The notes under the pieces: generated by a model
What the model saw: only the letters and a program-made list of their open reading frames with translations
Told to the model about the DNA's origin: nothing
The model's database searches: none
Assembly (NCBI RefSeq): GCF_037392515.1
Contig: NC_090291.1
Span: forward strand, 34,401,001 to 34,465,000
Length of the DNA stretch: 64,000 nucleotides
Origin: Haliotis asinina
Lineage: Eukaryota; Mollusca; Gastropoda; Lepetellida; Haliotidae
Reading direction: 5' to 3'
Shown: positions 8,492 through 36,096 of the stretch, in pieces
Layout of the letters: each line of letters starts with the position of its first letter
How positions within the stretch are numbered: the stretch's first letter is position 1
Program-made: the position numbers and the translations under genes

Positions 8492-8893
8492 CTAACGATT
8501 GATGGTTTCCTCTCTCATCAAACCTTTCAGAACATCCCTTGGCTTCACCCCCTGCAGATTTGACAGACACTGTCGATATGACATCCCTTTCTTGCCCTCT
8601 TTACACGTCTTGGGGTGCGGGTCATCGTCTATGTGTTTTAGCCAGGCAATCTTAATGTGAGCACTTTTCAAAACGTTGGGTACGTTTTTCAAACATTTGC
8701 TGATGTCTTGATTGCTTCCACCAGTAAATATGCTACGAAGACAGGTTAATATTGGCGTCTTCTTTGGCTCTCCAACATAAATTATTTTCCCTTTCCACAG
8801 GATTGTGAACACGCCACATTCTGTTCTGCTGAGGTGTCTTTCAAGTTGAGAATATTGGACGCCGTTATTCTCAAATAACGTCTTACAACGTCT
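8492..8893 (-). CDS. Gene A, exon with divergent GIY-YIG-like domain
   Basis: Terminal exon of gene A (133 codons plus stop). A good acceptor, ATGTTGGTTTCAG|AGACG, opens it in phase 0, like the matching exons of B, C and D. It begins RRCKTLFENN, comparable to KPCK[LV]L in the others. The GIY-YIG-like core is GVFTILWKGKIIYVGEPKK, ending PHPKTCKEGKKGMSYRQCLS and NLQGVKP. In GIY-YIG nucleases the two Tyr, an Arg, a Glu and an Asn form the active site. Here the first Tyr is Phe and no Arg stands in the usual place, so nuclease activity is doubtful. There is no C-terminal tail: the stop comes 14 codons after LQGVKP, and a DNA transposon begins just beyond it, which may have removed a former tail. 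The whole protein (with 10488-10862) would be about 255 aa. Confidence 0.75.
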   Translation of the reverse strand, partial: RRCKTLFENNGVQYSQLERHLSRTECGVFTILWKGKIIYVGEPKKTPILTCLRSIFTGGSNQDISKCLKNVPNVLKSAHIKIAWLKHIDDDPHPKTCKEGKKGMSYRQCLSNLQGVKPRDVLKGLMREETINR

Positions 8894-8970
8894 CTGAAAC
8901 CAACATGTGAAAGAAAATCAGACAGGTGAGCTCATGGAAATTTGAATTTGAAATTCATGTTACGGCAGTG

Positions 8971-9484
8971 TAAGTTAACTTAGACTCAGTATTATTCGTT
9001 ACTCTGGTATATACTGAATCTACCAAACCTTAGTAGAAGGTTGCTCAAAGGTTAACTGAAGCGACCTTCTACAGTGACTGTTCAATCAAAAGCGAGACAG
9101 CCGAACGGAATTAACCAACCAGACAAAGGGTACTGTTTAGGGTTCGGCGGGATCTACCAATTGGCGACGCATGATGACATAGTTACTATTAGATTATATT
9201 TCCGTAAGATGACATACTGGACTACAGATCGAATGTCCTTTTCAGCAACTGTTTATTATCGTTCAGCGTCCTCCACGAGTATCCCCCGGAAGTGATCGTG
9301 CGGTAATATCACTACGGAATCGTTCGAGCATAAACGTTTTCGAGGTGAAGGTTAAAACGGTACGTGCAAATGCTAACTTTCGCGATTTGGTAGGCTGTGA
9401 TTGGTCAGTTAAAAGTTTTTAAGGGTTTGTCAGACTCAGAATAGCTGTGAAACGGATATAATACTGAGCCTAAATCTACTTAGA
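8971..9484. mobile_element. Non-autonomous DNA element in the intron of gene A
   Basis: The left end TTAGACTCAGTATTAT and right end ATAATACTGAGCCTAA are inverted copies within terminal repeats of about 25 bp. The interior (about 510 bp) has no coding signal. It lies in the intron between the two coding exons of gene A. Confidence 0.65.
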
Positions 9485-10296
9485 TTTCATGTCACAGACT
9501 GATTTGTCTGTGGTGAAAAAACAGGTGAAAAAACAGTTGCAGGTGCACGCCATGTACTACGTGCCTGGTACACACCAGGCAATGGCAGTGTCTGTCAGAT
9601 AATGTAGTTTCTTTAATTACAGGCATGCATCTCTGTTTCCATGAACTGTTCATATTAAAACAATTTCTCATATATAGGCAAGTGTAACCCTGTATTCTAG
9701 TAAATATACTCGACAACAAAATTCCCTGCGATACAGACATTTTTGGATAAATTTGATCAGGTTTACCCAAAACGTACATAATACGAAAACAGAGCATACA
9801 AACGCAACTTTGAAATGATTTTTTTAAAACCAGGTCAAGCTGCTTTTGCACGTGCAATTTCGTGAAAAAAAACCGTCTGTGAGTTGCGGAGCTTTTTTCA
9901 ATGTGGATAAAGACACGTTCAATGACAGCTACCTGAATACAGCTACCTGGATAAACATTGAATTTCAAACCAGAAGTAAACTCTTTTGATGTCAAGACTT
10001 TCTGAAAAGGAGTGGTAGCGAGCACTTGGAAGCCGGAACCACAGGCGCTCTTGTCATTGCGAGGATATATCTAGATATATTGTCCCGTGAAGCGTTACAA
10101 ATGGCATGTTGTACACCAGCTGGCAAAAGACTAAACGCCAGCCACGTGGTTGTATTTTAAACCTCAACATTTAATTGCACAAACATATAAATACCCAGCA
10201 CCTAAGATACCAAATCAACGTCTTCCTGGTGCGGATCCAGGGCTTTGGAGAAGCGGGAGCATTATCATGTAAATTATAGCATCTAAAAACATTATA

Positions 10297-10357
10297 CGTT
10301 TGCAAAAGTCTAGATTTATGTTTTAAAAAATTGTTGTCCAAACATAGATTCGAATCC
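10297..10357. repeat. Block shared with 13066-13126
   Basis: GCAAAAGTCTAGATTT and CAAACATAGATTCGAA recur at 13066-13126 with few changes. It marks the lower edge of the duplicated segment around gene A. Confidence 0.65.
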
Positions 10358-10487
10358 CTGTGTCCTGGATCAGTGGTGGTCAAGCAGCATAAACAATAAG
10401 ATAAGGTAAAACATAGATAATCAAGATGTCTAAATAACTTCCAAACAGTTACTGAAATCTAAAACATTAAGTAAAGTGAAATTGTAC

Positions 10488-10862
10488 CTGGCTTACTGTT
10501 CGCCACTGACCCCGGTGTGTGGTAGAGTCATTTGACGACTCATTTCGTCTAGAGGGACCAGGCCAGACTTGGACCGTGGTCCAGCCATCTGGTCTTCTGG
10601 ATGGACCCTGTGTTGGTCCGCCGTTAGTCCGTCCCGGACACCCTGCTTCCTCGTCCTCCCCAGGCTCTGTCTTGATGATGAGTTCCGGTCGAGGTTCCAC
10701 CCTCTCGTGTTGTCCCGCCGGACACCCGCAGTAGGTACAGTTATGTCGGAGGACAGGTTGGGAATACTCTGGGCAGTCCTCGGGGCAGTCTTTACACCTA
10801 CCCCGAACAACTCCGTACTTGTCTCTGTTTGTGTCTGTGAACACTGCTGCCATCTCTAGGTA
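10488..10862 (-). CDS. Gene A, Cys/His-knuckle exon
   Basis: Coding exon bounded by acceptor TTTTGCTCAG|TAC and donor AGCCAG|GTACAA, in phase 0 at both ends. The first ATG (10853) gives 122 codons. The product starts MAAVFTDTNRDKYGVVRG and has a compact putative zinc knuckle: C-K-D-C, then C-T-Y-C-G-C-P-A-G-Q-H. The same pattern (C-x2-C ... C-x2-C-x-C-x4-H) occurs in the first coding exons of C and D. About 10 residues on comes IIKTEPGEDEE, which fits the extended SUMO-attachment consensus (hydrophobic-K-x-E plus acidic residues). The rest is Pro/Arg/Ser-rich and probably disordered. It splices in frame to 8492-8893 over a 1.6-kb intron. The function is unknown; a nuclear protein is likely. 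Confidence 0.75.
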
Positions 10863-11802
10863 CTGAGCAAAATTAATACAGTCAAATTGGCTCTTTGTGA
10901 GCTTCGGAACGGCAACGGGGGAAAAGAGTAAAAACGTTTCACCAAAAACTAACACGTAAGGGGCAAATACAGCTTTTTGAGAAAGGGTGGTTGCACAGTT
11001 CATTTGCACCCGCTTTCACTAGAGTTTCAATTAGTGAACTTTCAGGACAACAGGTGGGTCCGCATGGTAACCCCATCCTAACAGTTCATAAGATAATGAA
11101 ATAAATAAAAATGACAAATAAAAGAATAACATAAAAAACAATGAATACACAAACATTAATTGGTGAAACAAATCTATAAATAGTATCATATAAACTAAAA
11201 GTCTGGGATAGAATTGTCAGCATGGGGCGAATCGCTGGTATTCACATCGTGGGGCCACGAGTTACTGAATCTGGCAACTAGACTGTCAACTGAAATTTAC
11301 AATACAATTTTTATGTGTTAACAATATTGAACAGTTGTTTTGCACATAGTTAATTTTATAGTTCTGAACAATATCTACGGGTGCTACACTTTTGGACAAG
11401 GAAACCCTTTTTAAAACACATTAAAAAATGATCAAACGTAACAGACTGATATTAACAGAGTCATTTTACCTTCAGAAGGCAGGAAATTGCACCTGGGAGA
11501 ATCTAATTTTAAAACATTCTGGGGCCGGACCCCCTAGATCCTCGGCCGTTTTGAGGCCTCGAACGTGCTGAAGATCAAGTCTAATCCGTATGTTTTCCTT
11601 TACTAATTTGAGGAAAACAAATATAGCAGAGTTGCCTCCCCTGTATTGTCGACGCTGTGTCCATGAATTTGACATTTTTCTGACAGTTCGTTAATTTCTG
11701 TAGGGTTTACGAAATTCAGCTTCTTATTGGAACGCAGTTATACTTTTTAAGGGTACCAAGCATGTCACGTGGTTTGTGAAACATGGAATAAACATGGCTC
11801 AC

Positions 11803-11898
11803 CTGTGACGGAATCTAAAGCTGGGTGAACTTAGTTTGACAACACGCCTCCCGCTCCGGCTGTACGACTGGGTCTCTGACCTACATACAAACGTCAGT
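11803..11898 (-). other. Probable non-coding first exon of gene A, copy 1
   Basis: On the minus strand a conserved block runs from CGTTTGTATGTAGGTCAGAG to a donor CACAG|GTGAGC at 11803. It contains only an ATG followed at once by TAG. The same block with an intact donor recurs at 14001 and 2942. Position and strand fit a 5'UTR exon for gene A. The 5' end is not defined. Confidence 0.45.
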
Positions 11899-12009
11899 GT
11901 CCTTTTGAACTCGCGTGTAGCCAACCCATTCAGGACAAATCACCGTATCAAAGAGAGTATAGAGACGTCAGGGTATGTCAGTCAGGGCACTCACATTCAG
12001 AGGTGAAGG

Positions 12010-12152
12010 GTCTGTTGGATAGCCAAATTGTTAATGTGTTCGCTCATCACGCCGAAGACCTGGGTTCGATTCCCCATATGGGTTCAATGTGTGAAGCTCA
12101 GTACTGGTTGCTGGAATATTGCGAAAAGCGGATTAAACCTAAACTCACTCAG
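12010..12152 (+). mobile_element. SINE-A copy (tRNA-derived head), in copy 1
   Basis: The degenerate A box GGATAGCCAAATTG is followed by a perfect B box, GGTTCGATTCC, then ATTGCGAAAAGCGGATTAAA and an ACTC tail. Its partner in the duplication is at 14205. Confidence 0.8.
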
Positions 12153-12719
12153 AGTTATTGGCTAAACGTAATTCAAAATGATACTGCAGGGATACGTCTA
12201 CAACGAACGTAAAGGGGCCACTAAAGTTAGTCTATCTGAACCGTACCTCGTAAAATGCCAAATGAGTAGTTCGTAATATCCATCGTCCTGTTCATTACAA
12301 ACGTATTTGTACTGTCCTTTGTTTGATACTGTTTGGCAGATTAGATCCGTATGCATTAAAGAATTTGAACTGATGGGAAACATTACGTACCGTACTGCTT
12401 AAAATAATAATAAAAACAAAAAACAAAAACAAACAAACAAAAACAAAACATTATTCGTCGTTCCACTTCTTTTGCTCACAGTTATGCCATCATGAAAAAG
12501 ATGGGTGAGAGAATATTCCACCTCGATAGGGTCGGTGGGGTAACCCAGCAGTCAAATGATTTGCTCGACCCGCCAATGGATACGCATGTTTTTGATAAGT
12601 AATTTTATGTAAGTACATTGATATATGCGTGTAGTGCTTGGTTGAATAGCACCGACATCGTTGTTGAAAAGAAAAGACGGTCTAAAGATAAAAACAAGAA
12701 AGACCCCTTTCCCCATCAA

Positions 12720-12790
12720 TAGCAGGGGTAGCTAAGATACATAACGGTTCATGTTAGTGAACCCAATGTATCTTACCTATAGTAGGGGCA
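12720..12790. repeat. Imperfect palindrome related to 2461-2526
   Basis: CTAAGATACATAACGGTTCA faces GTGAACCCAATGTATCTTA. The core matches the perfect palindrome at 2461, and AGCAGGGG/AGTAGGGG flank it. Confidence 0.65.
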
Positions 12791-13065
12791 AATTCTGAGG
12801 CCATTCTAAACACTGTCACCATAGCAACACAACCGAGTAATACATTTGTACCACAATGTTGCAAATAGGGAGCTGTCCTCAGCGATTGTTAATCAATCTA
12901 TTTGTGTACATCATGATCAAAGTATTGATACAGCACTGTTTGAGTGCCATGTACACAAAGGTAATAAGGAGTTTTAACAGTAGAAGTTTCTAAAATATTC
13001 ATTTCTTCGCCGATTTCGTTCAAATTTGCAATATAAGTTAATCATAACATATTAAAACAACACAC

Positions 13066-13126
13066 AATTGCAAAAGTCTAGATTTTTATTTAAAAATATA
13101 TTGTACAAACAGAGATTCGAACCGCT
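13066..13126. repeat. Block shared with 10297-10357
   Basis: TGCAAAAGTCTAGATTTTTA and AGAGATTCGAAC match the block at 10297. Between this block and the start of duplication copy 2 only about 130 bp remain. The equivalent interval in copy 1 is about 725 bp and contains the Cys-knuckle exon of gene A. Confidence 0.6.
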
Positions 13127-14000
13127 TTGGCCATATACCCTCACCGCAGTCCTGAAATCCACACCTCAATTAATGACGCAAAGACATTAGCAGCCCATCT
13201 AACAGATGATCTGTATCAGAATGGTATACCGAAATACATACGATTACAAAAATCATCAGTTCATAAGATAATGAATCCAGACAATTCAAGAATAACATTC
13301 AAAACAATGAATACACGATTCACAAACAAACATTAATTGGTGAAAAAATCTGTAAATAGTATCATATAAACTAAAAGTCTAGGATAGAATTGTCAGCATT
13401 GGGCGAATTGCTGGTATTCACATCGCGAGGCCACGACAACTAGACTGTCAACTGAATTTTATAACAACTATTGTATGTTAACAATACTAAAAAAACAGTT
13501 TTATTGCATAGCTGTATATGCAGATATGTCTAAACACATTTACATAGCTAATTTTATAGCTCGGAACATTATCCACGTATGCTACACTTTGGCACATAGA
13601 AACTATTTTTAAAACACATGAAAAAATGGTCAAACGTAACAGACTGATATTAACAGAGTCATTTTACCTTCAGAAGGCAGGAAATTGCACCTGGGAGAAT
13701 CTAATTTTAAAACATTCTGGGGCCGGACCCCCTAGATCCTCGGCCGTTTTGAGGCCTCGAACGTGCTGAAGATCAAGTCTAATCCGTATGTTTTCCTTTC
13801 CTGATTAGGGGAAAACAAATATAGCAGAGTTGCCTCCCCTGCGTTGTCGACGCTGTGTCCATGAATTTGACATTTTTCTGACAGTTGCTTAATTTCTATA
13901 GGGGTTACGAAATTCAGCTTCATACCGGAACGCAGTTGTGCTTTTTAAGGATACCAAGCATGTCACGTAGTTTGTGAAACATGGAATAAACATGCCTTAC

Positions 14001-14090
14001 CTGTGACGGAATCTAAAGCTGGGTAGACTTGAACAACACGTCTTCCGCTAACGGCTGAACGACTGGGTCTTTGACCTACATACAAACGTC
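14001..14090 (-). other. Probable non-coding first exon, copy 2
   Basis: Minus strand, donor CACAG|GTAAGG at 14001, with the block CTACATACAAACG at the far end. It lies upstream of gene A and copy 1 on the same strand, so it could serve as an alternative first exon and promoter for gene A. This is inferred from homology and the kept donor. Confidence 0.4.
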
Positions 14091-14204
14091 AGTATTCTTG
14101 TGTGCTATTGAGCTCTCGTGTAGGCAATCCATTCAGCCCCCAATTGCCATATCAGTGAGAGTATAGATATGTCAGGGTATATCAGCCAGGGCACTCACAT
14201 TCAG

Positions 14205-14362
14205 AGTTGAGGGGGGCTGTGGGATAGCCGAATTGTTGAGGTGATCGCTCATCACGCCGAATACCTGGGTTCGATTCCCCATATGGGTTCAATGTGTGAA
14301 GCTCAGTACTGGTTGCTAGAATATTGCGAAAAGCGGATTAAACCTAAACTCAATCAGAGTTA
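14205..14362 (+). mobile_element. SINE-A copy, in duplication copy 2
   Basis: The same insertion as at 12010: B box GGTTCGATTCC and GAAAAGCGGATTAAACC. It was therefore present before the duplication. Confidence 0.8.
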
Positions 14363-14727
14363 TTGGCAAAACGTAATTCAAAATGATACTGCAGGGATAC
14401 GTCTATAACGAACGTAAAGGGGCCAGTAAAGTTATAGTCTGTCTGAACCGTAGCTCGTAAAATGCCAAATGAGTAGTTCGTAATATCCATCATCCTGTTC
14501 ATTACAAACGTATTTCTACTGTCCTTTGTTTTATACTGTTTTGGCAGATTAGATCCGTATGCATTAAAGAATTTGAACTGATGGGAAACATTAAGTACCG
14601 TACTGCTTACAAAATATAAACAACAACAACAGCAACAACAGCAACAACAACAACAAGAAAACATCATTCCTCGTTCCACTTCTTTTGTTCAGAGTTATAC
14701 CATCGTAAAATTAATGGGTGAGAGACA

Positions 14728-15423
14728 CAACACGGAAGGCAAGAACTCGTGGCTGGCCAGGCCTACATGACGCGCCATAAAATATCGTAGAATTGGGGTG
14801 TGGCTTGTCCATAAGTGCACTCAGTACAGAGTACCATATTTACATAAAGATACAAAAATTACGCATAATTTCTTTAGCTTATGAGCTTATGTTCCGTTAA
14901 CTTACAATAGTCCTTTAAACATGTTTTGAATTGTCGTGAATCAAGAAGAATCAACAGAAATTTATTTTCCAAAATTCGAACCGCATTCGGGAGAGAATGT
15001 CAAAATAAACGTTAATTTCAAACTGTTAAGAATGCCTAACTGGCGACTTCCAAATGCTATCTGACGTTTGAATAAAAGTGGGACACGTTTTCATGTTATT
15101 CGGGGTGAATTCGAGGTACGGGGTGCATTCGAGCTGTATTCCAGATGCAGTCGAACTATTCCGATATTTTTGAAGAATATTCCTCCTGAACTCCAGCAGC
15201 AATTGGAATGCTTAGAATGTGAAAAGAATACACTTCAAATGCCGTTCGATGTTTTTCAACTTCGATTGTACCTCGAAACTGTTCACTCGAAAGGTTTCAA
15301 TGCATTCGGAATACAGTTTTAGAATGCTCTTAGAATTTCCACCAACCTCGAGAAATTTTCATTCCGACAGCATTCCGGATCCTCCTGGCTCAAGTGTAAG
15401 GTGGTATATCCGACACTTCTTGT
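14728..15423. other. Non-coding, ATTCGA/ATTCGG-rich stretch
   Basis: From about 15085 to 15385 the motifs GCATTCGA, ATTCGGAATA and CATTCCGGATCC recur on both strands, suggesting a decayed repetitive element. An 84-codon frame at 15068-15322 is open but carries no motif I know. No Cys-knuckle exon for gene B is present here. Confidence 0.35.
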
Positions 15424-15580: not shown

Positions 15581-15603
15581 AAGGAGGATACCAAAAACGT
15601 CAT

Positions 15604-17432: not shown

Positions 17433-20400
17433 ATTAAACCATGCAAGCTGTTGCATAGAGGCCATGTACCGTACTCAGTCGTTGCCCGGACAAAGCGCAG
17501 GCCTAGTGGAGTGTACAAGGTTGCCTACATGTGGGAGACTGTCTATGTCGGTTCATCCAGCAACGTCATCAAGGACCTTCGGAAACAGTTCAGTGGTAAT
17601 GGCAAGCTGGACTTAATCGAATTCTTGCTGAATCTCACCAAGAAGGAACTTGAGATGGTATCCGTGTACTGGCTGGACGAAGCGATACATGTCCACAGCT
17701 GTGGTAAATCCTACCTGGAATGTATTACAGATCTACAAGGAAGGAAACCAAAGTTTAACGACATACAACCGATTCTCTGCTCCATGTCAGCTGCCAGCGT
17801 TGTCAGTACTGACTCCCAAACCTTGAAACATGGAAAAGGACAATCACAGGATGATGTATCTATCCGACCTAGCAACGCTACAGAAGAGCCAAAGACGATT
17901 GTCCAAAGGAGACTGGGATCGGCAGATAAACGTACTTCACCTGGATTCAGTGTAACGTCGAGGAAGAGACCTGCGGAAGAGGATGGAGAGAGATCGCAAT
18001 TTCATACCGATCAAAAGAAAATTAAGACTGGTCAACTTGCAGAACAACCAATGAATCGTCCTTTGACAACGAACCCCGAGTACACTGCTGTGACTGGTCA
18101 ACATGCAGTACAACCAATGCATCGTCCTTTGACAACGAAGCCCGAGTACACTGCTATGACTGGTCAACATGCAGAACAACCAATGCATCGTCCTTTGACA
18201 ACGAAGCCCGAGTACACTGCTGTGACTGGTCAACATGCAGAACAACCAGTGCATCGTCCTTTGACAACGAAGCCCGAGTACACTGCTGTGACTGGTCAAC
18301 ATGCAGAACAACCAGTGCATCGTCCTTTGACAACGAAGCCCGAGTACACTGCTGTGACTGGTCAACATGCAGAACAACCAATGCATCGTCCTTTGACAAC
18401 GAAGCCCGAGTACACTGCTGTGACTGGTCAACATGCAGAACAACCAATGCATCGTCCTTTGACAACGAAGCCCGAGTACACTGCTGTGACTGGTCAACAT
18501 GCAGTACAACCAGTGCATCGTCCTTTGACAACGAAGCCCGAGTACACTGCTGTGACTGGTCAACATGCAGAACAACCAATGCATCGTCCTTTGACAACGA
18601 ACCCCGAGTACACTGCTGTGACTGGTCAACATGCAGTACAACCAATGCATCGTCCTTTGACAACGAAGCCCGAGTACACTGCTATGACTGGTCAACATGC
18701 AGTACAACCAATGCATCGTCCTTTGACAACGAAGCCCGAGTACACTGCTATGACTGGTCAACATGCAGAACAACCAATGCATCGTCCTTTGACAACGAAC
18801 CCCGAGTACACTGCTGTGACTGGTCAACATGCAGTACAACCAATGCATCGTCCTTTGACAACGAAGCCCGAGTACACTGCTATGACTGGTCAACATGCAG
18901 AACAACCAATGCATCGTCCTTTGACAACGAACCCCGAGTACACTGCTGTGACTGGTCAACATGCAGTACAACCAATGCATCGTCCTTTGACAACGAACCC
19001 TGAGGACACTCCTGTCTGCCGAAGTCAAACAGCAAACTTACACTTTTCTGCCACAATGCTCAGTACAAATGTGACCTTAAAGATGCAGAGCATGGAAACG
19101 CCCAAGATGTTGCTGAACAACATCCCAAGAAGACCAGTCATATCAAAGTTATCGTACAAGCAAAGATCTCAGTCACAGGGAGGAGCTACTGTTGACATGT
19201 CTTTGAACCATGAAAATCTCACGACCCAGGCGTTACTTCAACAATTCTGTATTTCTCCAAGATCACCTGAGTTTGAAGAGAGAATCCAACGTGATAAAAC
19301 TGGATACATCGCTGGACGCTCAGAGATTAGGAAGGATAACTGTGGCAATATCCCAATTTCAACTATCACCAAAGGGAGTCAGCCTGTGTGTCCTACCACT
19401 TCACATTTTGACAAGGAGTCCCAAAAGGGGCTACAACCACATGTAGTGGGAGATAAATGCGAATCAACCAAAGAAAAAACATTTAGAGATCGCCCAAATG
19501 CTTCCCAGAGACATTCACTGGAAAAATATCCTCGTTTCCAAACATCCTCGGGAGGAAATGAACAAACACACACCGTCAGCTCTACACAGTCTCAGTCTAC
19601 ACATGCAGGGATAACACCTAGCCATGAGTTTAAGCCCTCAAACAAGGATCCAGGACAAAACGAACTGTCAAATCAAGAAAACAAGGTATCAGCACCATGT
19701 GCTTCTAGTGGAAATGACCCTGAAGGGAATATACAAATTCCTCCATTTTCTTCGACATCGGTTTCAGGTTTGGCTGAAGCAGTTCGTCTGTTCATGCCCG
19801 ATGCTGTACCTGAACCAGAAACACATGCAACAAGGTCATGCACCGGTATCCCCATAGGAGATAGCTCCAAACTGTTGGAGAGAATCTTAAAAGCTGCACC
19901 AGTGAAACCGAGCTCCCCTTGCCGGATAAAAACCCCTAGTGGAAGACGCAAAACAATGAATGAGACAACATCTTCGTCTTACAAAGGTCCAGATGCCAAT
20001 ATTGTGAGAATGCTGGTTTGTGATCCCCTCGTCTCCAGTACTCAGACATGTAAATCAAATCAGAGCCCTCAGACAAAGGTTCCAAACAAAGCTGCTGAAG
20101 AACCTCATTCAGAGACAAAGGTTCCAAACAAAGATATTGAAGAGCCTCATTCACAGACAAGGGTTCCAAACAAACCATCTGGAGAGCCACATTTACAGCC
20201 CATTGTCTCCAGTACTCAGACATGTCTTTCAAACCAGACCTCCCTGGCTGAAGTTCCAAACAAAGCTGCTGGCGGGCCACGTTCACAGACAAAAGTTGCT
20301 AACATAGCATGTGGAGAGCCATGTTCACAGAAAAAAGTTCCAATCAAAGATCCTGGAAGGTCAAGGTTGCAGCCAAAAGTTCCAAACATGACATGTAGAG

Positions 20401-21089
20401 AGCCACGTTTACAGACGATAGCTCCAAACATGGTACGTGGAGAACCACGTTCGCAAACAAAAGTTCCAAACAAGGATCCTGGAGAGACACGTACACAACC
20501 AAAAGTTCCAAACGTAGCATGTGGGAAGCCAAATTCACTGCCAAAAGTTCCAAGCATAGTATGTAGAGAGCCACGTTCACAGTCGAAAGCTCCAAACATA
20601 GCATGTGGAGAGTCGCGTTCAAAAACAAAAGTTCCAAGCAAGGATCCTGGAGAGTCACGTACACAGCCAAAAGTTCCAAACAAGGCATGTGCAGAGCCAC
20701 GTTCAAAAACAAAAGTTCCAAACAAGGCATGTGCAGAGCCACGTTCAAAAACAAAAGTTCCAAACAAGGCATGTGCAGAGCCACGTTCAAAAACAAAAGT
20801 TCCAAACAAGGCATGTGCAGAGTCACGTTCAAAAACAAAAGTTCCAAACAAGGCATGTGCAGAGCCACGTTCAAAAACAAAAGTTCCAAACAAGGCATGT
20901 GGAGAGTCGCGTTCACAGACAAAAGTTCCATGCAAAGATCCTGGAGAGCGACGAACAATCAGGACACAATCATTGCCGAAGAAAGACTCGGATACAGTGG
21001 AAGGAGCTGGTGTATTTTCCGTGATCAAGACCATTGGTTCCAAAGTGTTTACGATGATGAACCCATTTGCCTCAAACGGTGGTCAGTAA
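17433..21089 (+). CDS. Gene B: GIY-YIG-like protein with two coding minisatellites
   Basis: A single large terminal exon (1218 codons plus stop) opened by acceptor ACTTATTTCCAG|ATTAAACC in phase 0, as in A, C and D. It begins IKPCKLLHRGHVPYS. Residues about 28-110 form the GIY-YIG-like domain: GVYKVAYMWETVYVGSSSN, an Arg in DLRKQF, then VHSCGKSYLECITDLQGRKP with a final FN. Of the four paralogs it keeps the most nuclease-like residues (both Tyr, a candidate Arg, Glu and Asn). Basic clusters (SRKRPAEEDGER, DQKKIK) suggest nuclear import. Then come 15 repeats of 22 aa (18027-19016), a Ser/Thr-rich stretch, and 20 repeats of 14 aa (about 20065-20952). It ends TMMNPFASNGGQ. The upstream exon with the start codon was not found, and no Cys-knuckle exon is visible between 14.7 and 17.4 kb. 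The tail resembles no known domain. Confidence 0.8.
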   Translation: MKPCKLLHRGHVPYSVVARTKRRPSGVYKVAYMWETVYVGSSSNVIKDLRKQFSGNGKLDLIEFLLNLTKKELEMVSVYWLDEAIHVHSCGKSYLECITDLQGRKPKFNDIQPILCSMSAASVVSTDSQTLKHGKGQSQDDVSIRPSNATEEPKTIVQRRLGSADKRTSPGFSVTSRKRPAEEDGERSQFHTDQKKIKTGQLAEQPMNRPLTTNPEYTAVTGQHAVQPMHRPLTTKPEYTAMTGQHAEQPMHRPLTTKPEYTAVTGQHAEQPVHRPLTTKPEYTAVTGQHAEQPVHRPLTTKPEYTAVTGQHAEQPMHRPLTTKPEYTAVTGQHAEQPMHRPLTTKPEYTAVTGQHAVQPVHRPLTTKPEYTAVTGQHAEQPMHRPLTTNPEYTAVTGQHAVQPMHRPLTTKPEYTAMTGQHAVQPMHRPLTTKPEYTAMTGQHAEQPMHRPLTTNPEYTAVTGQHAVQPMHRPLTTKPEYTAMTGQHAEQPMHRPLTTNPEYTAVTGQHAVQPMHRPLTTNPEDTPVCRSQTANLHFSATMLSTNVTLKMQSMETPKMLLNNIPRRPVISKLSYKQRSQSQGGATVDMSLNHENLTTQALLQQFCISPRSPEFEERIQRDKTGYIAGRSEIRKDNCGNIPISTITKGSQPVCPTTSHFDKESQKGLQPHVVGDKCESTKEKTFRDRPNASQRHSLEKYPRFQTSSGGNEQTHTVSSTQSQSTHAGITPSHEFKPSNKDPGQNELSNQENKVSAPCASSGNDPEGNIQIPPFSSTSVSGLAEAVRLFMPDAVPEPETHATRSCTGIPIGDSSKLLERILKAAPVKPSSPCRIKTPSGRRKTMNETTSSSYKGPDANIVRMLVCDPLVSSTQTCKSNQSPQTKVPNKAAEEPHSETKVPNKDIEEPHSQTRVPNKPSGEPHLQPIVSSTQTCLSNQTSLAEVPNKAAGGPRSQTKVANIACGEPCSQKKVPIKDPGRSRLQPKVPNMTCREPRLQTIAPNMVRGEPRSQTKVPNKDPGETRTQPKVPNVACGKPNSLPKVPSIVCREPRSQSKAPNIACGESRSKTKVPSKDPGESRTQPKVPNKACAEPRSKTKVPNKACAEPRSKTKVPNKACAEPRSKTKVPNKACAESRSKTKVPNKACAEPRSKTKVPNKACGESRSQTKVPCKDPGERRTIRTQSLPKKDSDTVEGAGVFSVIKTIGSKVFTMMNPFASNGGQ
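18027..19016 (+). repeat. Coding minisatellite: 15 units of 66 bp
   Basis: Each unit encodes 22 residues of the form TGQHAEQPMHRPLTTKPEY-TAV. Variation is confined to a few sites (E/V, M/V, K/N, V/M), and the first and last units are most diverged, as expected for unequal exchange inside the array. The opposite strand is open for 363 codons only because the unit is a multiple of three. Confidence 0.95.
20065..20952 (+). repeat. Coding minisatellite: about 20 units of 42 bp
   Basis: Units encode 14 residues, typically SKTKVPNKACAEPR, with variants such as SQTKVPNKDPGETR. A non-repeat insert (SSTQTC region) splits three leading units from seventeen that follow. Units near 20690-20900 are almost identical and therefore recent. 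The array is highly basic. Confidence 0.9.
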
Positions 21090-21820
21090 CCATGGAAACG
21101 CAAAGCTATAATTGATCTGATCACTCCAATGAATATGATTTGTTTCAGCTTTGTTGTGTGTAGATAACACTTTTAGCTTTTGATCAAGTTAAAGTGTTCT
21201 TTAAAGTGTATAATTTTCCTTTGCCCAGTTGTTTGGTCCATGCATTTGGAGAATGCCAGATCTCCAGATCAACCGGGTGTGGAAGGCAAAACTTTGTTGT
21301 TTTTTTTGTAAATAATATAACAGTTATATCTAAGGACAGTTAACATTTATTCTTTCTGACAAACGATTGATGTTACTGATTATTGTTAGCCATATGACTG
21401 TTAAGTTTCGTCGCCCAGTCAACATGGGAGTCCTTTTGCATCGTTTTGATTTGCTATTTTGAATCACAGCTAAAATCACATCGATATACTCGGTTGTTCT
21501 CTACTGTACTTATCTTGAGTGAGGCTTATCATGCTATACTAGGCACAATAAGAAACCTAGTGCAAAACAAATTCAAAATCTAAATTTATCAAACCTATGT
21601 AGACACATTATGATTTAAACTCAGAGATTAGTGACACGTCTCATTCCATGACCTCAGGGATTTCGTTCTTGAAACGTGCAATACGTTGTTGCACGTGCAT
21701 TCCGGGAAAGAAATACAGAGCAAACGAATGTCACACAATACTGTCACTTTGGAAAGCCCAACCCCTTACGATCGTTCAAAAAAGTAAACGGCTATTAAAA
21801 CGCATGGCATCCCAAGGCTA
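21090..21820. other. Gene B 3' flank, no gene seen
   Basis: AT-rich sequence, probably including the 3'UTR of gene B. No clear polyadenylation site could be fixed and no repeat was recognised. Confidence 0.35.
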
Positions 21821-21829
21821 ACTTCTGCA

Positions 21830-22262
21830 CAAAGCCATGAGGCCATCGGGATAGTCCGTTGGGGAATGTCTCAACGACAAGTGGCTGCACATTTCCACTG
21901 CCACCGGAACACCGGTTCTTCACTAGTGAGACGCTACCAGAGCACACATGACGTCATCGAGTGGCCACGGTCTGGACGTCCACGTGTAACAACGCCAAGA
22001 CAGGACAGATGGATAAGGGTGACCCATCTTCGCCACAGGTTTCAGACTCCAGTGATGACTGCCCGGACCATCCCAGGACTTCCCCTATTCACCCCAACAC
22101 AGGTCGACAACGTTTACGGCATCACGGGATCAGACCACGACGTCCCACCATGCGACCTATTCTGACACAACGCCATGACAAGCTCGCCGAATGTGATGCC
22201 GAAATCATGTCCGCAGACCCCTGTTTTATTTTTACAGATGAGTCCAGGTTTAATATCAATGT
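21830..22262 (+). pseudogene. Tc1-type transposase fragment (N-terminal half)
   Basis: The plus strand reads GIVRWGMSQRQVAAHFHCHR (helix-turn-helix), WPRSGRPRVTT (the Tc1 linker), and after a frameshift PRRPTMRPILTQRHDKLAEC and FIFTDESRFNI, holding the first catalytic Asp. Homology stops there: the second Asp and the Glu are absent. This is a second Tc1 lineage, different in sequence from the one at the left edge. It is truncated and frameshifted, hence inactive. Confidence 0.8.
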
Positions 22263-26830: not shown

Positions 26831-27232
26831 AACGGTGCGATGGAACCACCAAGCATCTACTTCGGTTGCAAATGTCGAAGGTGCTACAGTTACAAGGCTC
26901 CGGACGACGGTGCCACCACGAACTGCGCCGCGTGTGAATGTCCGCCAAGTGACCACAGCGTCATGATGAGGGTCGACCCCGACGAGGATGATGATGACCT
27001 CCCTGATCCATCTTGTTATTCAGTAGTGCCAATGTCTGGCACAGCATCCGCCCCTCCATCGGAAACAACTTCATGGTCGTTGACAGACTCGGACGTAACT
27101 GACTTTGCTAGCCTGTTGGATACCAAGAGTAAGAAACGTGCTGCGGATGATCTTGGCGGGGAACCGGCCAAAAAGAAGCCGAAGGGTGCCACAACTGGAC
27201 CAAAAACAGACAAAGATTTTAATGGGAATGAG
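26831..27232 (+). CDS. Gene C, Cys/His-knuckle exon
   Basis: Exon bounded by TATCCTTTCAG|AACGGTGCG and donor GGGAATGAG|GTATGT, in phase 0 on both sides. ATG at 26840 gives 131 codons. It begins MEPPSIYFGCKC, with the knuckle C-R-R-C ... C-A-A-C-E-C-P-P-S-D-H, the same spacing class as A and D. The acidic stretch after it reads MMRVDPDEDDDDLPD. It aligns with the SUMO-like site of A (IIKTEPGEDEE), but the acceptor Lys is replaced by Arg. A bipartite nuclear-localisation signal follows, KKRAADDLGGEPAKKKPK. It splices in frame to 28094-28489 for a protein of about 262 aa. Function unknown; nuclear location likely. Confidence 0.75.
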
Positions 27233-28093: not shown

Positions 28094-28489
28094 GGCTTGC
28101 TGAAGATGAAGCCATGCAAGGTTCTCCAGACAGGACACATCCCCTTCACCGAGATGGAACAAATTCCATATGATGTCAGAGGAGTGTACAAGATCGCCTT
28201 CAACTGGCAGACAATCTACGTAGGCTCAAATTCCTGCAAGATCAAAACTACCCTGAAGAGCCATTTCAGCGGTCACGGCCGGGTCGATCTGTTTGACTAT
28301 ATTAAGCGCCTGAGTCAGAAGGACCTGGAGAAGGTGACGGTGTATTACCTAGACGAGACAAAGTACGTCCACAACTGCCCAAAGAAAAGTTATATGAAGT
28401 GTATTGAAGACTTGCAGGGCGCCAGACCAATGTTCAATCTGCCACTTAACAAAAATCCTACGTCAAAATGGTGGTGCAATGTCCAATAA
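28094..28489 (+). CDS. Gene C, exon with GIY-YIG-like domain
   Basis: Terminal exon (131 codons plus stop) after acceptor CATTTATCCTAG|GGC, phase 0. It starts GLLKMKPCKVLQTGHIPF. The GIY-YIG-like domain is GVYKIAFNWQTIYVGSNS, then SQKDLEKVTVYYLDETKYVH, then NCPKKSYMKCIEDLQGARP with MFN. Both core Tyr residues are present. The usual Arg position holds Lys/Thr (KIKTTLKSHF) and the residue before the last Cys is Lys, so a complete catalytic site is not evident. The conserved H-x-C and SYxxC positions could instead bind a metal. There is no long tail: 15 residues follow the domain. It is the most compact member with A. Confidence 0.8.
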   Translation, partial: GLLKMKPCKVLQTGHIPFTEMEQIPYDVRGVYKIAFNWQTIYVGSNSCKIKTTLKSHFSGHGRVDLFDYIKRLSQKDLEKVTVYYLDETKYVHNCPKKSYMKCIEDLQGARPMFNLPLNKNPTSKWWCNVQ

Positions 28490-29587: not shown

Positions 29588-30410
29588 AAAGTACTGAAGT
29601 CCCCTCGATCCTCAACAGATACACGGCTGTAATATTGCCGTAAAATTTAACTCTTTCACACATCACATAGTAAATGTATGCATTGCCCATTTCTCGTTTC
29701 CCGGTCATGTCGTTGTCGGGACGACGTGCGCTACATGTTACTCAATTGTTTATTTCATTAATTACTCACGTTTGTAAAGAGGTACAACGGTAATTCACAT
29801 GATATCAATCTCTGTAGCTATAGAAATCTATCCATATCCGCTAAGAGTTACCTGCCCTTACCTGCAGTTGACCTTCAACGTGTGTCGCTTGGCACACTTT
29901 CGGCCAGACATTTGGTGATTGATTAATAGTCTACGTTTAGCTGGCCGTTGACATCACATTTAAGGTAATAGTTGAATTGTTGTTTTAAAAAATGACGAAG
30001 TCCTTTTTCCGTTAAAGTGACGGGTTTCAGTGCATACGATTAAAGGAAATGACAATCAACAAAGCGTCACTCGTCCGTAATATGTAAAGCCCAAACTTAG
30101 GGAGCGAACAGTGATGAAAAAAATAAAATGAACAAAAACAGCAGCGGTCTACAGCAGTGTAGGCTAGTGACGTTTTAAAGACATGTTCTCAATGACGTCA
30201 TGTTCTCATTTTAAATATCATCTATTTGCGTATGCCAACAGTATATGTGATATTTGTGAGACCGTACACACGATAAGGGGAGGCAACTCGTGCTATTTCT
30301 CAGACATGTGACATGTCCTAACTTTTCATACCTATTTTGTTATTAAAAAGTCAAATTGCCAACATACATATGTGTAGTAGTCAACAACGACTGAACATTA
30401 TTTAGAATTC
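29588..30410. other. Intergenic, no gene seen
   Basis: AT-rich. GGGGAGGCAACTCGTGCTAT at 30279 resembles the GGGGAGGCAACTCTGCTATA motif in the duplicated block upstream of gene A. Confidence 0.35.
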
Positions 30411-30912
30411 AGGGACCATTCATAATTTATGGTTGGGATTTGTTTCATGCTTAAAATACATGCTTCTCCATTAAAAATGTCATTGTCCCCCAAGTCATAA
30501 ATTCTGGGGGATAAATTTGAAAAGGAGTTTAAGTCGAAGACCCGCACCATTTGGCGTACCTCTGGACAATTGTTCAAAGGAACCTTAAACCTAATTCACC
30601 AACTACTATCTCCAGTGGTCACCATGCAGTGGTTACTAATTTATGGTTAGGGGTGGAGGGATGGTGATTTTAAGGTGGGGCACCCATATTGTTTTGGGGA
30701 GTTAGGGATCAGTAATTTTGTACAATGCTGTATGTAAATGTTATGCTTGAAGATTATTACTTTAGTACTTGACATGCAGGGGGTCACTTACTTTGCACAT
30801 AAATCTTGGGAGGGGTAGGGAGTGAAGGTGTGTGTGTGTGTGTTCATTCACACTGTACATGCTTATTCTTTAAAAAAATCACCTCACTGGTCATAAATTA
30901 TGACTGATCCCT
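30411..30912. mobile_element. Non-autonomous DNA element with inverted ends
   Basis: The left end AGGGACCATTCATAATTTAT pairs with the right end ATAAATTATGACTGATCCCT. The interior has GTGTGT repeats and CCCC-rich tracts but no ORF. Related pieces lie near 22690, 26185 and 49835-50030. Confidence 0.7.
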
Positions 30913-32288
30913 CATGACCTCCCACAGCATCAAGCATGGTGATGAAGAATCTAGGCCATGTATGTCAACCACACAGAAACTCATTTTAAGTCGTGCTAGA
31001 TGGATACTTTCTGGACAAGACTCTTATTGGTAGCTCAGATTCAAGTTAATTGAAAATCAAACTGAGTAAACTTGACATAAAAATAGGATATGCGTGTGGA
31101 CATTTACAGAGGGCTATATTCATCCCCAAGTCAACAACAAATATCAGTTAAATTCCAACACAAGAATGATAATGAACAAAAAAAATACTTAGTGTTATAA
31201 ATATTGTCTTGACTTCAGTTATGGATTTGTAAAGGGGCGTGACTTTCGTAGTCCACTAGGAAGGGAAGAAACATCTCACATTTTTACTATTGAATTCATT
31301 GCATTGTTAAAATTGGTGACAACTCAGTTGGTACCAAAATAACATTTACCGAATTTACTCACTTAGGTGTGCCAAAAAGCCCAGTGAGATAGATTATATA
31401 ATTAGTGATATTAGTGAAATAATTTTAACTAGTCCAAGATTATTTATGCAAAAATAGACATCTGGTTTCAAAACGATGTGAATTGGATTGCACTGGTAAG
31501 TCCTGTACTTGATAAATTTCACCAATGAAGAATTGTTGAAGGCGTTACAAATAGGGAATATCAGATTATCAAGACGTAGACAAAATCATTTTTACTCTAC
31601 TGTAAACTTTGGACTTCTTTACTCAGTAAGTGAATTCAAGAATAAGATTAAATCATAATTATTGTAATACATTAAATTCATTTGGGTTTGATATCAACAC
31701 TCGAAACAGGTTCTGTCAAATAACGATCAGAATACAGCGATTTAAATGGCCGTAAAGAGTGAGACACCAAGTGGTGTTCACCTATTGCCCCCATGAGGGG
31801 AATCGAACATTGGTCTTCGGATCGAACGCTGGGCTACCCGACTGTCCCAAAACAATTATGTCACTATACAGTGCACATGGTTAGGAGCTGGGACCTGTCA
31901 GATATATGTCAGGAGATTTGTAGTTTAGGCGTACCATTGTTTGACATTGGTGAAATAGATATAACATGTTAAATTTATTTTGGATTGAATCTAACACAGC
32001 TGAAATGATGACAGATAAGATATATATAACTAGTTAGGGCTGGCTAAAGTGATCGATAATCGGAAATATCGCCGAGAAGAAAGATCGTTCATGAACAGAA
32101 ACAAGTTTCAGTTATGTCACACAATATACATATTTAGGACTTCATGGACAGCTTCAAAATTATATTCAGGACGCTCTTTTTGTTAATCCGTGCATAAATA
32201 GGTCACCACTCACCCGTTATGTGAAATATGTTTATTTCCTTAAGACGTCTATGGCATGTTTGCTCAAGGTTACGTCTCTCCGATTATC
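30913..32288. other. Intergenic upstream of gene D
   Basis: AT-rich sequence. A SINE-A fragment on the minus strand at 31744-31848 (GGGGAATCGAAC, TGGTCTTCGGATCG) is the only recognisable repeat. No coding sequence seen. Confidence 0.5.
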
Positions 32289-32551
32289 GACCCGTAAAGA
32301 TCCGGGGTAGAATAGGTCTTCAGCGACCCATGCTTGCCATAAAAGGCAACTATGCTTGTCGTAAGAGGCGACTAACGGGATCGGGTTGTCGGGCCCGCTG
32401 ACACATATCAGCAGTTCCTAGTTGCGCAGATCGATGCTCATGCTGTTGATCAATGGATTGTCTGGTCCAGGCTCGATTATTTACAGACCGCCGCCATGTT
32501 TGCTGGAATATTGCTGAGTGCGGCGTAAAACTAAACTCACGCACACACTCT
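32289..32551 (+). mobile_element. SINE-B copy 80 bp upstream of the gene D Cys exon
   Basis: Near full length: GACCCGTAAAGATCCGGGGT, GTCGTAAGAGGCGACTAACG, GGCTCGATTATTTACAGACC and GTGCGGCGTAAAACTAAACT. Confidence 0.9.
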
Positions 32552-32630
32552 TCAATTATCGACCTCTGTGATCTGTATCGATAGCCAGCCTATGACTAGT
32601 CACCTGCCTAACCTCTCTGTGCTAACACAG

Positions 32631-33086
32631 GTTGCTGGAGGCTACATGATGTCTTATGTTGAAGACAAACGCGGTGTTCCCCGCGGAAGCTGCATCTGTG
32701 GACAATGCGCCCACTATGTACCACAGCCCGATGGACATGCATGTGGCTATTGCGGCTGTCTGCCTGTGAAGCATGAAGACCTCAGAAAGATCTCAAATCT
32801 GCAAGAGCCCTTTCCAGTTCTTGGAATTAAAAGAGAAATTGCTTCAGAAGATGAACTTCCTGTCATACTTGGGCCATGTAGGCCTAGAAAATCAAACAAT
32901 CTCCCAGACAGATCAGATGCTAAGGACTGGACGTCTGAACAGGCAACAGCCGGTGCGAAGACACACAGTGGTGTGGTGTCAGTCAAAACAAACAAACTAC
33001 CTTGTCATGAGAACCTGGCGAAGGATAACCAAGTACCGGAATCGTTCAGTTACCCGCAATATCAAAATTCAGATGCACTTAAGAAG
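32631..33086 (+). CDS. Gene D, Cys/His-knuckle exon
   Basis: Exon between TGTGCTAACACAG|GTTGC and donor ACTTAAGAAG|GTAGTG, phase 0 at both ends. The first ATG (32646) gives 147 codons. It starts MMSYVEDKRGVPRGSCICGQ; the knuckle is C-G-Q-C ... C-G-Y-C-G-C-L-P-V-K-H, clearly the same module as in gene A. Downstream, GIKREIASEDELPVILG combines a SUMO-attachment-like site (I-K-R-E plus acidic residues) with a short hydrophobic run (PVIL) that could be a SUMO-binding motif. The remainder is polar and probably disordered. The frame also runs into the intron (to 33176), but the phase-0 donor matches those of A and C. It joins 33826-36096 for a protein of about 903 aa. Function unknown. Confidence 0.75.
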
Positions 33087-33344
33087 GTAGTGTATGAAAC
33101 AGTTCATCATTTGTTTAGGAATGCTCCTATTTACGTTAAAAATGTAAAAAAAGCACAACTTCACTGTAAACACTAGCGCCAGATTGAGTGTACCAGCGTA
33201 CTGTGTATAAAACGCGTCAGTGATTATCAGTAAATGAATCAGTAATGAATTATTTTATTATGTGTAAATATGCTACAAACTACCAGGCAAAGTAAAGCGT
33301 ACACTTTAAAACTGTTTTTTAGCTAAAAAGATATGAAAACATTA

Positions 33345-33622
33345 CGACCCGTAAAGGTCTGTTCTGTTTGATTGGCAAACCCGTAAAAGTCCAGGTTACA
33401 GCTGATCTTCAGCAGCCAATGCTTGTTGTAAGAGACGACAAACGGGATTGGGAGTTCAGGTTCGATGACTTGGTTTACACATGTCATCGGTTTCCAGTTA
33501 CGCGGAACGATATTCATGCTGTTGATTACTTGATTGTCTGGTCCAGACTTGATTATTTACAGACCACCGCCAGATATCTGGAATATTCCTGAGTGCGGCG
33601 TAAAACCAAACTCACTCACTCG
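33345..33622 (+). mobile_element. SINE-B copy in the gene D intron
   Basis: It has a duplicated head (GACCCGTAAAGGTCTG, then AACCCGTAAAAGTCCAGG), GTTGTAAGAGACGACAAACG and the tail GTGCGGCGTAAAACCAAACT. Gene C carries a SINE-B in the same intron. Confidence 0.85.
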
Positions 33623-33825
33623 CTATAAAATATTACAGGGTTGAATACAGTAACATCTACAAACGTAAATCCATAACAGAAATGTGAAACCCACATCAGT
33701 CATGAAATAACCATCCCTTTTCTTTATTTCCAGCCACCGCCAAACAGACACATATACATTGATTTGCCTTGTGGTATATACACTTACACATACCAAGGTG
33801 AATATCATATAATCTTTCTCCTCAG

Positions 33826-36096
33826 GTACCACCGTGCGAGCTCCTTCAAACAAGTCATATGCCATACTACGAGCTTCCTAGCAAACAGCCAATGAGGGGT
33901 GTATTTAAGATCGCCTACAAACACAAGACAATCTACATAGGAAAATCACTTAACATCCGTCGACACTTGAAAAGGCTTATGCCAGGGAGAATACGTCAGG
34001 AGATAGGAAATTTCCTCAGAAATCTTTCGAAGAAGAAAAAGAAGTATTTGACTGTGTCTTGGATCGACTCGGACGTATACGAGCACAACTGTAAAGGGAA
34101 GTCGTATTTCAGGTGTATCACTAGGATACAGGGGGAAAAGCCCAAATATTCCTATCCTAAGAAGTACACCGAGGCTGGAGGAGGAGCTGGAGGTGAAGGA
34201 ACTGCAGCTGTACCTACTGACGTCGTGTCAACACCTGAGCTCACAGGCATGATCAAAACTGCTAACCAACATAGCCATGTAGAGGTGGAGGATGTTGTGC
34301 TTCACAAGAGGATTGACTCTCCGCCTCAAATTCAAAGTTTTAATATTGGAGTTGATAACAGAGAAGTAAAGAGACAGAGGAGTGAATCTCCGCAACAACA
34401 GCGCAGCACTCTCACTGGAGATAGTCAGGGAAGAAGCAAGAAGCCCTTTGGTAGTGGGAACTTTTTGAAAAAGGAAACTGATGACGTAAGCGAAGGAATT
34501 AAAATCACAGTTTTTGAATCATACGTGCATGAAGTTGAGCCTGTAGTGGAAAAAATAGCACCATTCAAAGGAAAATGTCAAACGAATCGCAAGAAACCCA
34601 AAACAAGTGCTGCTAACCTGCTCTCTAAAGCTCTTCAGCCTAAATCCACAAAACGTTCAAAAAATGCTCCAGAAGCTCTGGGCACGAAAGATTACGCCAC
34701 AAAGACGAAGTCATGTTGCGTTTTACTGAACAAGGAAGTATATTACATACCAGAAGCAGACGTAAGTAAACCGCCCAATGAACATTTTGAGAAGAAAACA
34801 TCAGATACAGAGGAATGTAATGGTGTAGAAAGAGTGAAGGCTTTATCTTCCCTGAGGAAAATCCCACATGTGTCATCTGCTGAGGAGACTACAGTTTCCA
34901 AATCTTCCAATGTAACCGAACTAAAGACAAAAGATGTTGCCATATCTACGAGATACATGGACACGGCCATGTCACCAGCAAAAGTCAATTGGTCTGGTGG
35001 ACTTTCTGGACAAGAAAGTCCGTTGACTGATATCAGACTGAACACGTCAACACCCATTCATTTCATTCAAACAGCAGAAAAGAATGAGTCAGAATCACTA
35101 TGTAAAGAACAAAAATCACACGGAGTATGGTCCTCTCCGGGTATCCCTTTCACTGCAGAAGAGAACCAAGAATGGGTTCCTGATATTTTGGCTGATTCAG
35201 AAGACTCGATGAAACTCATCATAGATGAACACCAATGTGCTTACTCACCTGACACATCAAAAAGCACCTATGAAAACTTGCCAGAGAGTCCCATAACCCC
35301 CTTGAACGTGGAACATGATTACAGGAATGAGTCTGTTAGATCTGATTCGAAATCTCATCCAGAGGAAGATGATGCTTCTTTTCCAGCTATTCCTGGAAGC
35401 TTCTGGAGTTCACAGTCGACACGTCCCAAATCAACACAGTGGGTAAGTCCGGTTCGGTATCAGCATCCAACTAACGCATCAACAGATTCACTGAGACCGC
35501 AAACTGTACCGACGATGTCACAGTTTCCAAATTCTTTCGAAGAGAACAAAGGAACCTTTAACTCAGATTCGTCGGATTTATCACATTCTATCAACCGTAG
35601 CATGGTGGCAAAGAGTAGATGTGAGGGTTCTACCGGGTGTACAACTGAGTGCGGTTCCACTGATGAGAGATTATCTCCAGGTACGCTTCCTAGCAAACCT
35701 CATGTTCATGTCTTTGCTGACGGGAATTTGTCCAGCGCTGCTAATGACACAAAACCTGTCAAAGCCCTTTCAGAAAACAACGGTTCAGTTTGTACCACCA
35801 AGTGTCTAGAAGGAAGGACCTCTCGTTGTGACACCAGAATTGTCGTTTGTGATAAAACGTCAGAACCCTGTAGTCCTCCGACTCAGTATAGGAAGAAACC
35901 CAATATGCGAAGAGAACCATGGCCTATGTTTGATAACATCGAACACTGGAGATCTCATCAACACGACCTTTTCAAATCCTACAGCTCTAGTAACTGCTAC
36001 ACAAGGCGAGAACAAACTTCAGGCAGGGTCGAAGCCCATCATGGAAACATGAAGGACACAACCCATTTGAAAAGAGAACGTCCCTCGGGGCCCTAG
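33826..36096 (+). CDS. Gene D, GIY-YIG-like domain plus long disordered tail
   Basis: Terminal exon (756 codons plus stop) after acceptor TCTTTCTCCTCAG|GTACCA in phase 0. It begins VPPCELLQTSHMPYYE, matching the other members. The domain is GVFKIAYKHKTIYIGKSLN, with basic residues (IRRHLKRLM) where the catalytic Arg is expected, then VSWIDSDVYEHNCKGKSYFR and CITRIQGEKPKYSYP. The first Tyr is Phe and the Glu/Asn positions are not kept. A long low-complexity tail follows (about 640 residues, rich in Ser, Thr, Pro, Glu and Lys) with basic patches (VKRQRSES, TNRKKPK, KSTKRSKN) suited to nuclear import. It contains no repeats like those of gene B and no domain I know. The tail ends KRERPSGP. Confidence 0.8.
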   Translation, partial: VPPCELLQTSHMPYYELPSKQPMRGVFKIAYKHKTIYIGKSLNIRRHLKRLMPGRIRQEIGNFLRNLSKKKKKYLTVSWIDSDVYEHNCKGKSYFRCITRIQGEKPKYSYPKKYTEAGGGAGGEGTAAVPTDVVSTPELTGMIKTANQHSHVEVEDVVLHKRIDSPPQIQSFNIGVDNREVKRQRSESPQQQRSTLTGDSQGRSKKPFGSGNFLKKETDDVSEGIKITVFESYVHEVEPVVEKIAPFKGKCQTNRKKPKTSAANLLSKALQPKSTKRSKNAPEALGTKDYATKTKSCCVLLNKEVYYIPEADVSKPPNEHFEKKTSDTEECNGVERVKALSSLRKIPHVSSAEETTVSKSSNVTELKTKDVAISTRYMDTAMSPAKVNWSGGLSGQESPLTDIRLNTSTPIHFIQTAEKNESESLCKEQKSHGVWSSPGIPFTAEENQEWVPDILADSEDSMKLIIDEHQCAYSPDTSKSTYENLPESPITPLNVEHDYRNESVRSDSKSHPEEDDASFPAIPGSFWSSQSTRPKSTQWVSPVRYQHPTNASTDSLRPQTVPTMSQFPNSFEENKGTFNSDSSDLSHSINRSMVAKSRCEGSTGCTTECGSTDERLSPGTLPSKPHVHVFADGNLSSAANDTKPVKALSENNGSVCTTKCLEGRTSRCDTRIVVCDKTSEPCSPPTQYRKKPNMRREPWPMFDNIEHWRSHQHDLFKSYSSSNCYTRREQTSGRVEAHHGNMKDTTHLKRERPSGP

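Follow-up and report, generated by a model that had tools for sequence, protein, structure and literature searches.

Four related genes, A on the minus strand and B, C and D on the plus strand, lie within a 64,000-nucleotide stretch of the genome of the gastropod Haliotis asinina (NC_090291.1, positions 34,401,001 to 34,465,000; hereafter the window). From sequence comparison and structural models, we consider it reasonably probable that they represent a probably nuclear animal protein family that combines an N-terminal zinc-ribbon-like Cys/His knuckle with a GIY-YIG-fold domain, the two meeting at a phase-0 splice junction and the domain having presumably lost the ability to cut. The terminal exons of the four genes encode one homologous domain of ~115 residues. 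All six pairings of these exons are significant in tblastn comparisons within the window, with identities and expectation values (E) of 48% and 8e-35 for B/C, 40% and 4e-27 for B/D, 38% and 2e-24 for C/D, 34% and 3e-11 for A/D, 29% and 5e-9 for A/B, and 25% and 7e-7 for A/C. In all six pairs, codon identity is near random at position 3 (0.27–0.39) and higher at position 2 (0.50–0.69) and position 1 (0.43–0.66). Because third positions are close to random while second positions are kept, we conclude that the exons are coding sequence under purifying selection on the protein. Seventeen columns of the domain are invariant, including three Cys, G-V, Y-x-G, Asp, S-Y, Q-G and Pro. An earlier note on this DNA had described four paralogous exons derived from one ancestral gene; their coordinates, strands and phases are correct, and the comparisons support descent of the cluster from one ancestral two-exon gene, which would have been copied by duplication with one copy now on the opposite strand.

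The second component of the family is an upstream exon rich in Cys and His. Of the 1,609 six-frame peptides of at least 25 residues in the window, just three contain the pattern C-x2-C-x-C-x4-H, one each in the exon upstream of A, C and D; 100 Markov-1 randomizations produced a mean of 0.25 matches (maximum 2) and none to the fuller two-knuckle pattern. The Cys exons of A and D are homologous (E 3e-7, tblastn within the window), and the likeness of C to A is weak (E 0.02–0.03) and lies mainly around the second knuckle. The pairing of a Cys exon with a GIY-YIG-like exon, as proposed for the cluster, therefore stands for A, C and D, by pattern and by phase-0 splice sites, but not for B, in which no Cys exon is recognizable, even with a three-sequence profile run over all six frames of the window. 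The junctions 10488/8893, 27232/28094 and 33086/33826, predicted in the earlier note, are all bounded by GT..AG in phase 0, and we predict from these sites that the Cys exons join the terminal exons by splicing. For each Cys exon, an acceptor-like AG can be seen by eye ahead of the first ATG, 9 nt away in A and C and 15 nt away in D, which suggests that two coding exons follow a 5′ exon without coding sequence; the start of gene A is less sure because its open frame continues upstream of the first ATG. The predicted products comprise 903 residues for D and only 255 for A and 262 for C, and these two compact members should be easy to express and test. Among PDB sequences, the best match to the Cys exons is the ribosomal zinc ribbon eL37, at chance level (E 0.18); in Pfam, zf-UDP matches C alone (E 0.0099), its 16.4 bits falling short of the 27.1-bit cut-off.

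Profile comparison relates the terminal-exon domain, mainly its first half, to GIY-YIG domains. Our reference set consisted of 47 such domains, 46 of them bacterial and phage and the last from an open reading frame (ORF) in the window itself (VIYKTDCNCGHSYIGKTSRPVYTRIKEH, 48850–49476, minus strand), which we take from its motif to be Penelope-like. The family aligned to this set by hhalign with a probability of 89.8% in local mode and 69% in global mode; none of 200 column shuffles exceeded 2.7%, and reversing the alignment gave 1.4%. The local value was 88.8% without the Penelope-like copy (60 shuffles, maximum 1.9%) and 74% against 21 UvrC sequences (60 shuffles, maximum 6.3%). When the family profile was searched against the 47 domains, seven Enterobacterales UvrC and a protein of T4 took the top eight places, with E values of 1e-4 to 3e-3 that come from a tiny set in which the best reversed decoy scored 0.023. 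In the other direction, the 46-member GIY-YIG profile ranked the Penelope-like ORF first among the 1,609 peptides (E 5e-7) and weakly placed C second (E 0.12), D third (0.66) and B fifth (1.1). A UvrC model of NCBIfam matched one of the four members (E 0.019).

Two AlphaFold2 models, each built from an alignment of four sequences, share the order strand-strand-helix-helix-short helix-strand-helix, to which model 2 adds a strand and a helix in front. In a Foldseek search of the PDB with model 1, the first seven rows are all UvrC GIY-YIG domains, and all but one of the first 12 rows are GIY-YIG proteins, as are 15 of the best 50 of 73 matches. Among the best 50 viral rows for this model, 21 carry a GIY-YIG or endonuclease name, 28 are unnamed or uncharacterized, and 1 is named otherwise. 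Model 2 finds its best PDB match in 2lwf, an N-terminal domain from a plant Grx (presumably GRXS16), with GIY-YIG proteins in seven of the first eight rows. In these counts, we take T4 EndoII and Hpy188I to be GIY-YIG enzymes; the GIY-YIG identity of the remaining matches was read from their own titles. The best E values are 0.0097 for the viral search and 0.059 (model 1) and 0.028 (model 2) for the PDB. On these low-confidence models, then, the arrangement is tentatively the beta-beta-alpha ... beta-alpha of GIY-YIG proteins, whose structures are the nearest found.

Several observations weigh against a GIY-YIG assignment. The hhalign probability varies with the reference set chosen, falling to 31% (local) and 1% (global) for a narrow set of eight UvrC, and the aligned stretch spans only 33–42 columns, mainly in the first half of the domain. 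Exon A is unmatched by the GIY-YIG profile up to E 50. The top-ranked UvrC are closely related, and the best reversed decoy outscores another UvrC that is less close to them (E 0.039). Pfam gave no GIY-YIG match for the family, although it also missed the Penelope-like ORF. The models are of low confidence (predicted local distance difference test (pLDDT) scores of 62 and 67; predicted template modeling scores of 0.53 and 0.65), no Foldseek E is below 0.001, template modeling scores of the best matches are about 0.41–0.55, and the rows are redundant, with few proteins recurring. For model 2, the best 50 of 258 matches comprise 14 GIY-YIG proteins versus 29 of vaccinia D13. These points would suit an unrelated small alpha/beta domain carrying a chance G-V-Y ... 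Y-V-G hairpin: confidence is low, the similar stretch is short, Pfam is silent, A goes unmatched and the C-terminal half is not significant. We nevertheless regard such a coincidence as unlikely, though deserving to be taken seriously, given a profile comparison well above 200 shuffles and a reversed control, and fold searches in which GIY-YIG domains come first. The GIY-YIG fold is thus modestly supported. Of what the earlier note had proposed, a GIY-YIG-like core is supported by the profile comparison and by the element order and best PDB matches of both models, and qualified by low pLDDT, by E values above 0.001 and by the loss of catalytic residues from all four members.

PMC1564403 defines the GIY-YIG superfamily by its two name-giving motifs, GIY and YIG, together with an Arg at the center and a C-terminal Glu. 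All four H. asinina domains retain both motifs, the first reading GV[YF], with Phe in place of the GIY Tyr in A and D, and the second Y[VI]G. The central Arg is absent from all four: in direct profile alignments its position holds His in D, Asp in B and Thr in C, and placement through the family alignment gives Cys in A. None of the four has a conserved Glu in the last helix. With the Arg replaced and no conserved Glu, the canonical catalytic pair is absent, and a domain that lacks the nuclease-defining residues in every member is better called a pseudo-nuclease. When the S-Y-x-x-C ... P segment is slid along UvrC, the best of 44 offsets sets an invariant Cys at the catalytic Glu, so that the Glu position most likely corresponds to this Cys; counting against the replacement, the register is not significant (85 of 1,000 shuffles reach its score). 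In the same non-significant register, B and C share the C-terminal Asn position of the UvrC lineage as Asn, whereas D has Ser there and A has Val.

The domain could still be a working GIY-YIG nuclease if other residues served catalysis; candidates include the Asp that invariably follows strand 3 and basic residues in helix 1. The invariant Tyr and Gly of YxG and that invariant Asp (D81 in D) count in its favor, as does the Asn that B and C would have at the place of the UvrC-lineage Asn. The GIY-YIG domain of GRXS16, the presumed best match of model 2, is reported as an endonuclease (PMC5890173). The missing Arg and conserved Glu, together with the Phe of A and D, make a working nuclease improbable. 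It is quite improbable that the genes are instead what is left of a mobile element, for instance a Penelope-like one, or parts of it that were domesticated. Such elements carry GIY-YIG domains according to PMC1564403, a Penelope-like GIY-YIG domain lies in the same window, and this ORF heads the non-members found by the family profile, with an E of 0.018 overall and 0.41 for its best domain; the window also contains transposon pieces. However, the predicted introns share one phase, the domain is under purifying selection, no reverse transcriptase was found in the pieces scanned with Pfam, and seven UvrC outscore the Penelope-like domain, if narrowly (E 1e-4 to 2e-3 versus 3e-3).

Under the explanation we favor, a nuclear pseudo-nuclease family, the GIY-YIG fold would have been retained through its GV[YF] and Y[VI]G strands and cutting lost. 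The domains are basic (isoelectric points of 9.4–10.1) and may act as nucleic acid or protein binding modules, to which the Cys/His knuckle, which may bind zinc, would add another. In B and D, the long tails would be disordered linkers, and SUMO-like sites beside the knuckles of A and D may regulate recruitment. Taken with the nuclear localization signal (NLS)-like stretch of C, the basic domains and the SUMO-like sites point to proteins that are probably nuclear binding or scaffold proteins, the NLS-like and SUMO-like features being motif matches only. If this is correct, the family would be a further animal case in which GIY-YIG is reused without cutting, the fold being kept and invariant cysteines and a zinc-knuckle exon added. 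A bolder possibility, which we think rather unlikely, is that the active site has been rebuilt as a metal or redox site, in which the Cys at the Glu position would bind zinc or form a regulated disulfide. Its partners would be the other two invariant Cys, C4 and C89 (D numbering), and a nearby His that only A lacks. A DNA cutter would then have become a binding module gated by thiols or metal, and the Cys exon would supply a second zinc site. In plant GRXS16, Cys123 of the GIY-YIG domain has been proposed to form a disulfide with the glutaredoxin part (PMC5890173).

Searches of Pfam, NCBIfam, PHROGs and PDB sequences returned nothing significant for the domain; animal protein and genome collections lay outside their scope. 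The best PHROGs match has an E of 0.055. Among PDB sequences, a one-exon query found at best an unrelated chain (E 0.38), and a profile query likewise gave no confirmed relative. Viral and prokaryotic contigs yielded 32, 22 and 49 pattern-matching stretches, none of which was confirmed as a relative, and tblastn searches with D in phages and B in plasmids reached a best E of about 6. Among the open-licence papers listed in literature searches, none describes the combination of a GIY-YIG-like domain with a Cys/His knuckle in its title or the opening of its abstract. The pairing thus appears to have no match among the catalogued families searched.

Table: Predicted exons and coding repeats of the four-gene cluster (positions within the window)
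Feature	Position	Strand	Basis and borders	Motifs and content
Gene A terminal exon, including stop	8492..8893	minus	within-window homology	GIY-YIG-like domain
Gene A Cys exon	10488..10862	minus	first ATG 10853; homology, pattern, splice sites; 5′ border by eye	C-x2-C-x3-C ... C-x2-C-x-C-x4-H; IKTEPGEDEE with SUMO-like IKTE; donor CAG/GTACAA (slash marks the exon end)
Gene B terminal exon	17433..21089	plus		GIY-YIG-like domain (about 17433–17777) and long repeat-rich tail
Coding minisatellite in B tail	18026..19015	plus		66-bp unit (22 residues) × 15, 96% match
Gene C Cys exon	26831..27232	plus	first ATG 26840; pattern, splice sites; 5′ border by eye	C-x-C-x2-C ... C-x2-C-x-C-x4-H; bipartite NLS-like KKRAADDLGGEPAKKK
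Gene C terminal exon, including stop	28094..28489	plus	homology and structure model	GIY-YIG-like domain
Gene D Cys exon	32631..33086	plus	first ATG 32646; homology, pattern, splice sites; 5′ border by eye	C-x-C-x2-C ... C-x2-C-x-C-x4-H; SUMO-like IKRE
Gene D terminal exon	33826..36096	plus		GIY-YIG-like domain (about 33826–34167) and 644-residue Ser/Thr-rich tail

The tail of B contains a second in-frame tandem array (20031–20953, plus strand) with periods of 42, 84, 126 and 174 bp. Between A and B, the segments at about 11440–12400 and 13640–14600 appear by eye to be alike over much of their length, as a dispersed repeat or a local duplication. Transposase pieces occur at 541–1203 (minus) and at 6679–7230 and 21788–22162 (both plus); in Pfam they match a Tc3-type helix-turn-helix (E 5e-15) and, below the cut-offs, DDE_3 and HTH_23 (each E 2e-4). 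Downstream of the cluster, a 297-residue ORF at 38579–39469 (plus) matches QRICH1 (E 5e-12) and DUF3504 (E 2e-7) and carries a poly-Ala/poly-Asp tract; domains of this type originate from crypton recombinases. A 626-residue open frame at 53226–55103 (plus) is TRIM-like, with RING, B-box and NHL repeat, and a 49-bp tandem array of 12.6 copies (95% match) spans 56963–57578. Scanning the window with Rfam (gathering thresholds) and for tRNA genes gave no matches.

The earlier note held that this combination fits none of SLX1, ANKLE1 and Penelope-like elements, which is supported insofar as their partner domains were not found in the pieces scanned with Pfam: no SLX1-type RING in the terminal exons of A and C, the tail of D or the tail of B outside 17901–18986; no ankyrin or LEM domain of the ANKLE1 (COG3680) type in the Cys and GIY-YIG-like exons, exons further upstream lying outside the scan; and no N-terminal reverse transcriptase of the Penelope type in the scanned exons, the surrounding sequence lying outside the scan. 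The Cys/His cluster of DUF123 looks similar to that of the family. This candidate (COG1833/DUF123) was rejected: hhalign gave a weak 10% with 19 of 22 members (60 shuffles, maximum 2.5%) versus 74% for the 21 UvrC, and A and C end about 15–20 residues past the LQGxKP block with no His/Cys cluster. The N-terminal domain of UvrC resembles the family in providing the best PDB matches of model 1, in the GVY..IYVG hairpin and helix 1, and, in the register that is not significant, in the P-x-F-N end of B and C. Unlike UvrC, the family lacks the catalytic Arg and a conserved Glu, gives no match to UvrC partner domains when scanned with Pfam, and has three invariant Cys and, in A, C and D, an N-terminal Cys/His exon. 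The best PDB match of model 2, 2lwf, is presumably the N-terminal domain of GRXS16. Cysteine redox control has been proposed for GRXS16, which differs from the family in its glutaredoxin fusion and in being reported as an active nuclease (PMC5890173). SLX1 is likewise a eukaryotic GIY-YIG protein with a zinc-binding domain; its RING is C-terminal and it lacks the C-terminal Asn (PMC1564403), whereas the knuckle of the family is N-terminal and B and C would have the Asn.

According to PMC13179284, only SLX1A and ANKLE1 are annotated as GIY-YIG among human proteins, and ANKLE2 has recently been proposed as a non-catalytic relative; its Unc-1 domain is described there as resembling GIY-YIG by prediction, without the motifs or endonuclease activity, and a scaffold role is proposed for it. 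ANKLE2 Unc-1 and the H. asinina family are thus both animal cases of a GIY-YIG-like predicted fold with catalytic motifs missing. They are set apart, by the description of ANKLE2 rather than by sequence comparison, in that ANKLE2 carries ankyrin and LEM domains but neither motif, GIY or YIG, in clear form, whereas the family keeps both hairpin motifs and adds the knuckle. By analogy, ANKLE2 Unc-1 would offer a precedent for a GIY-YIG-like protein that does not cut.

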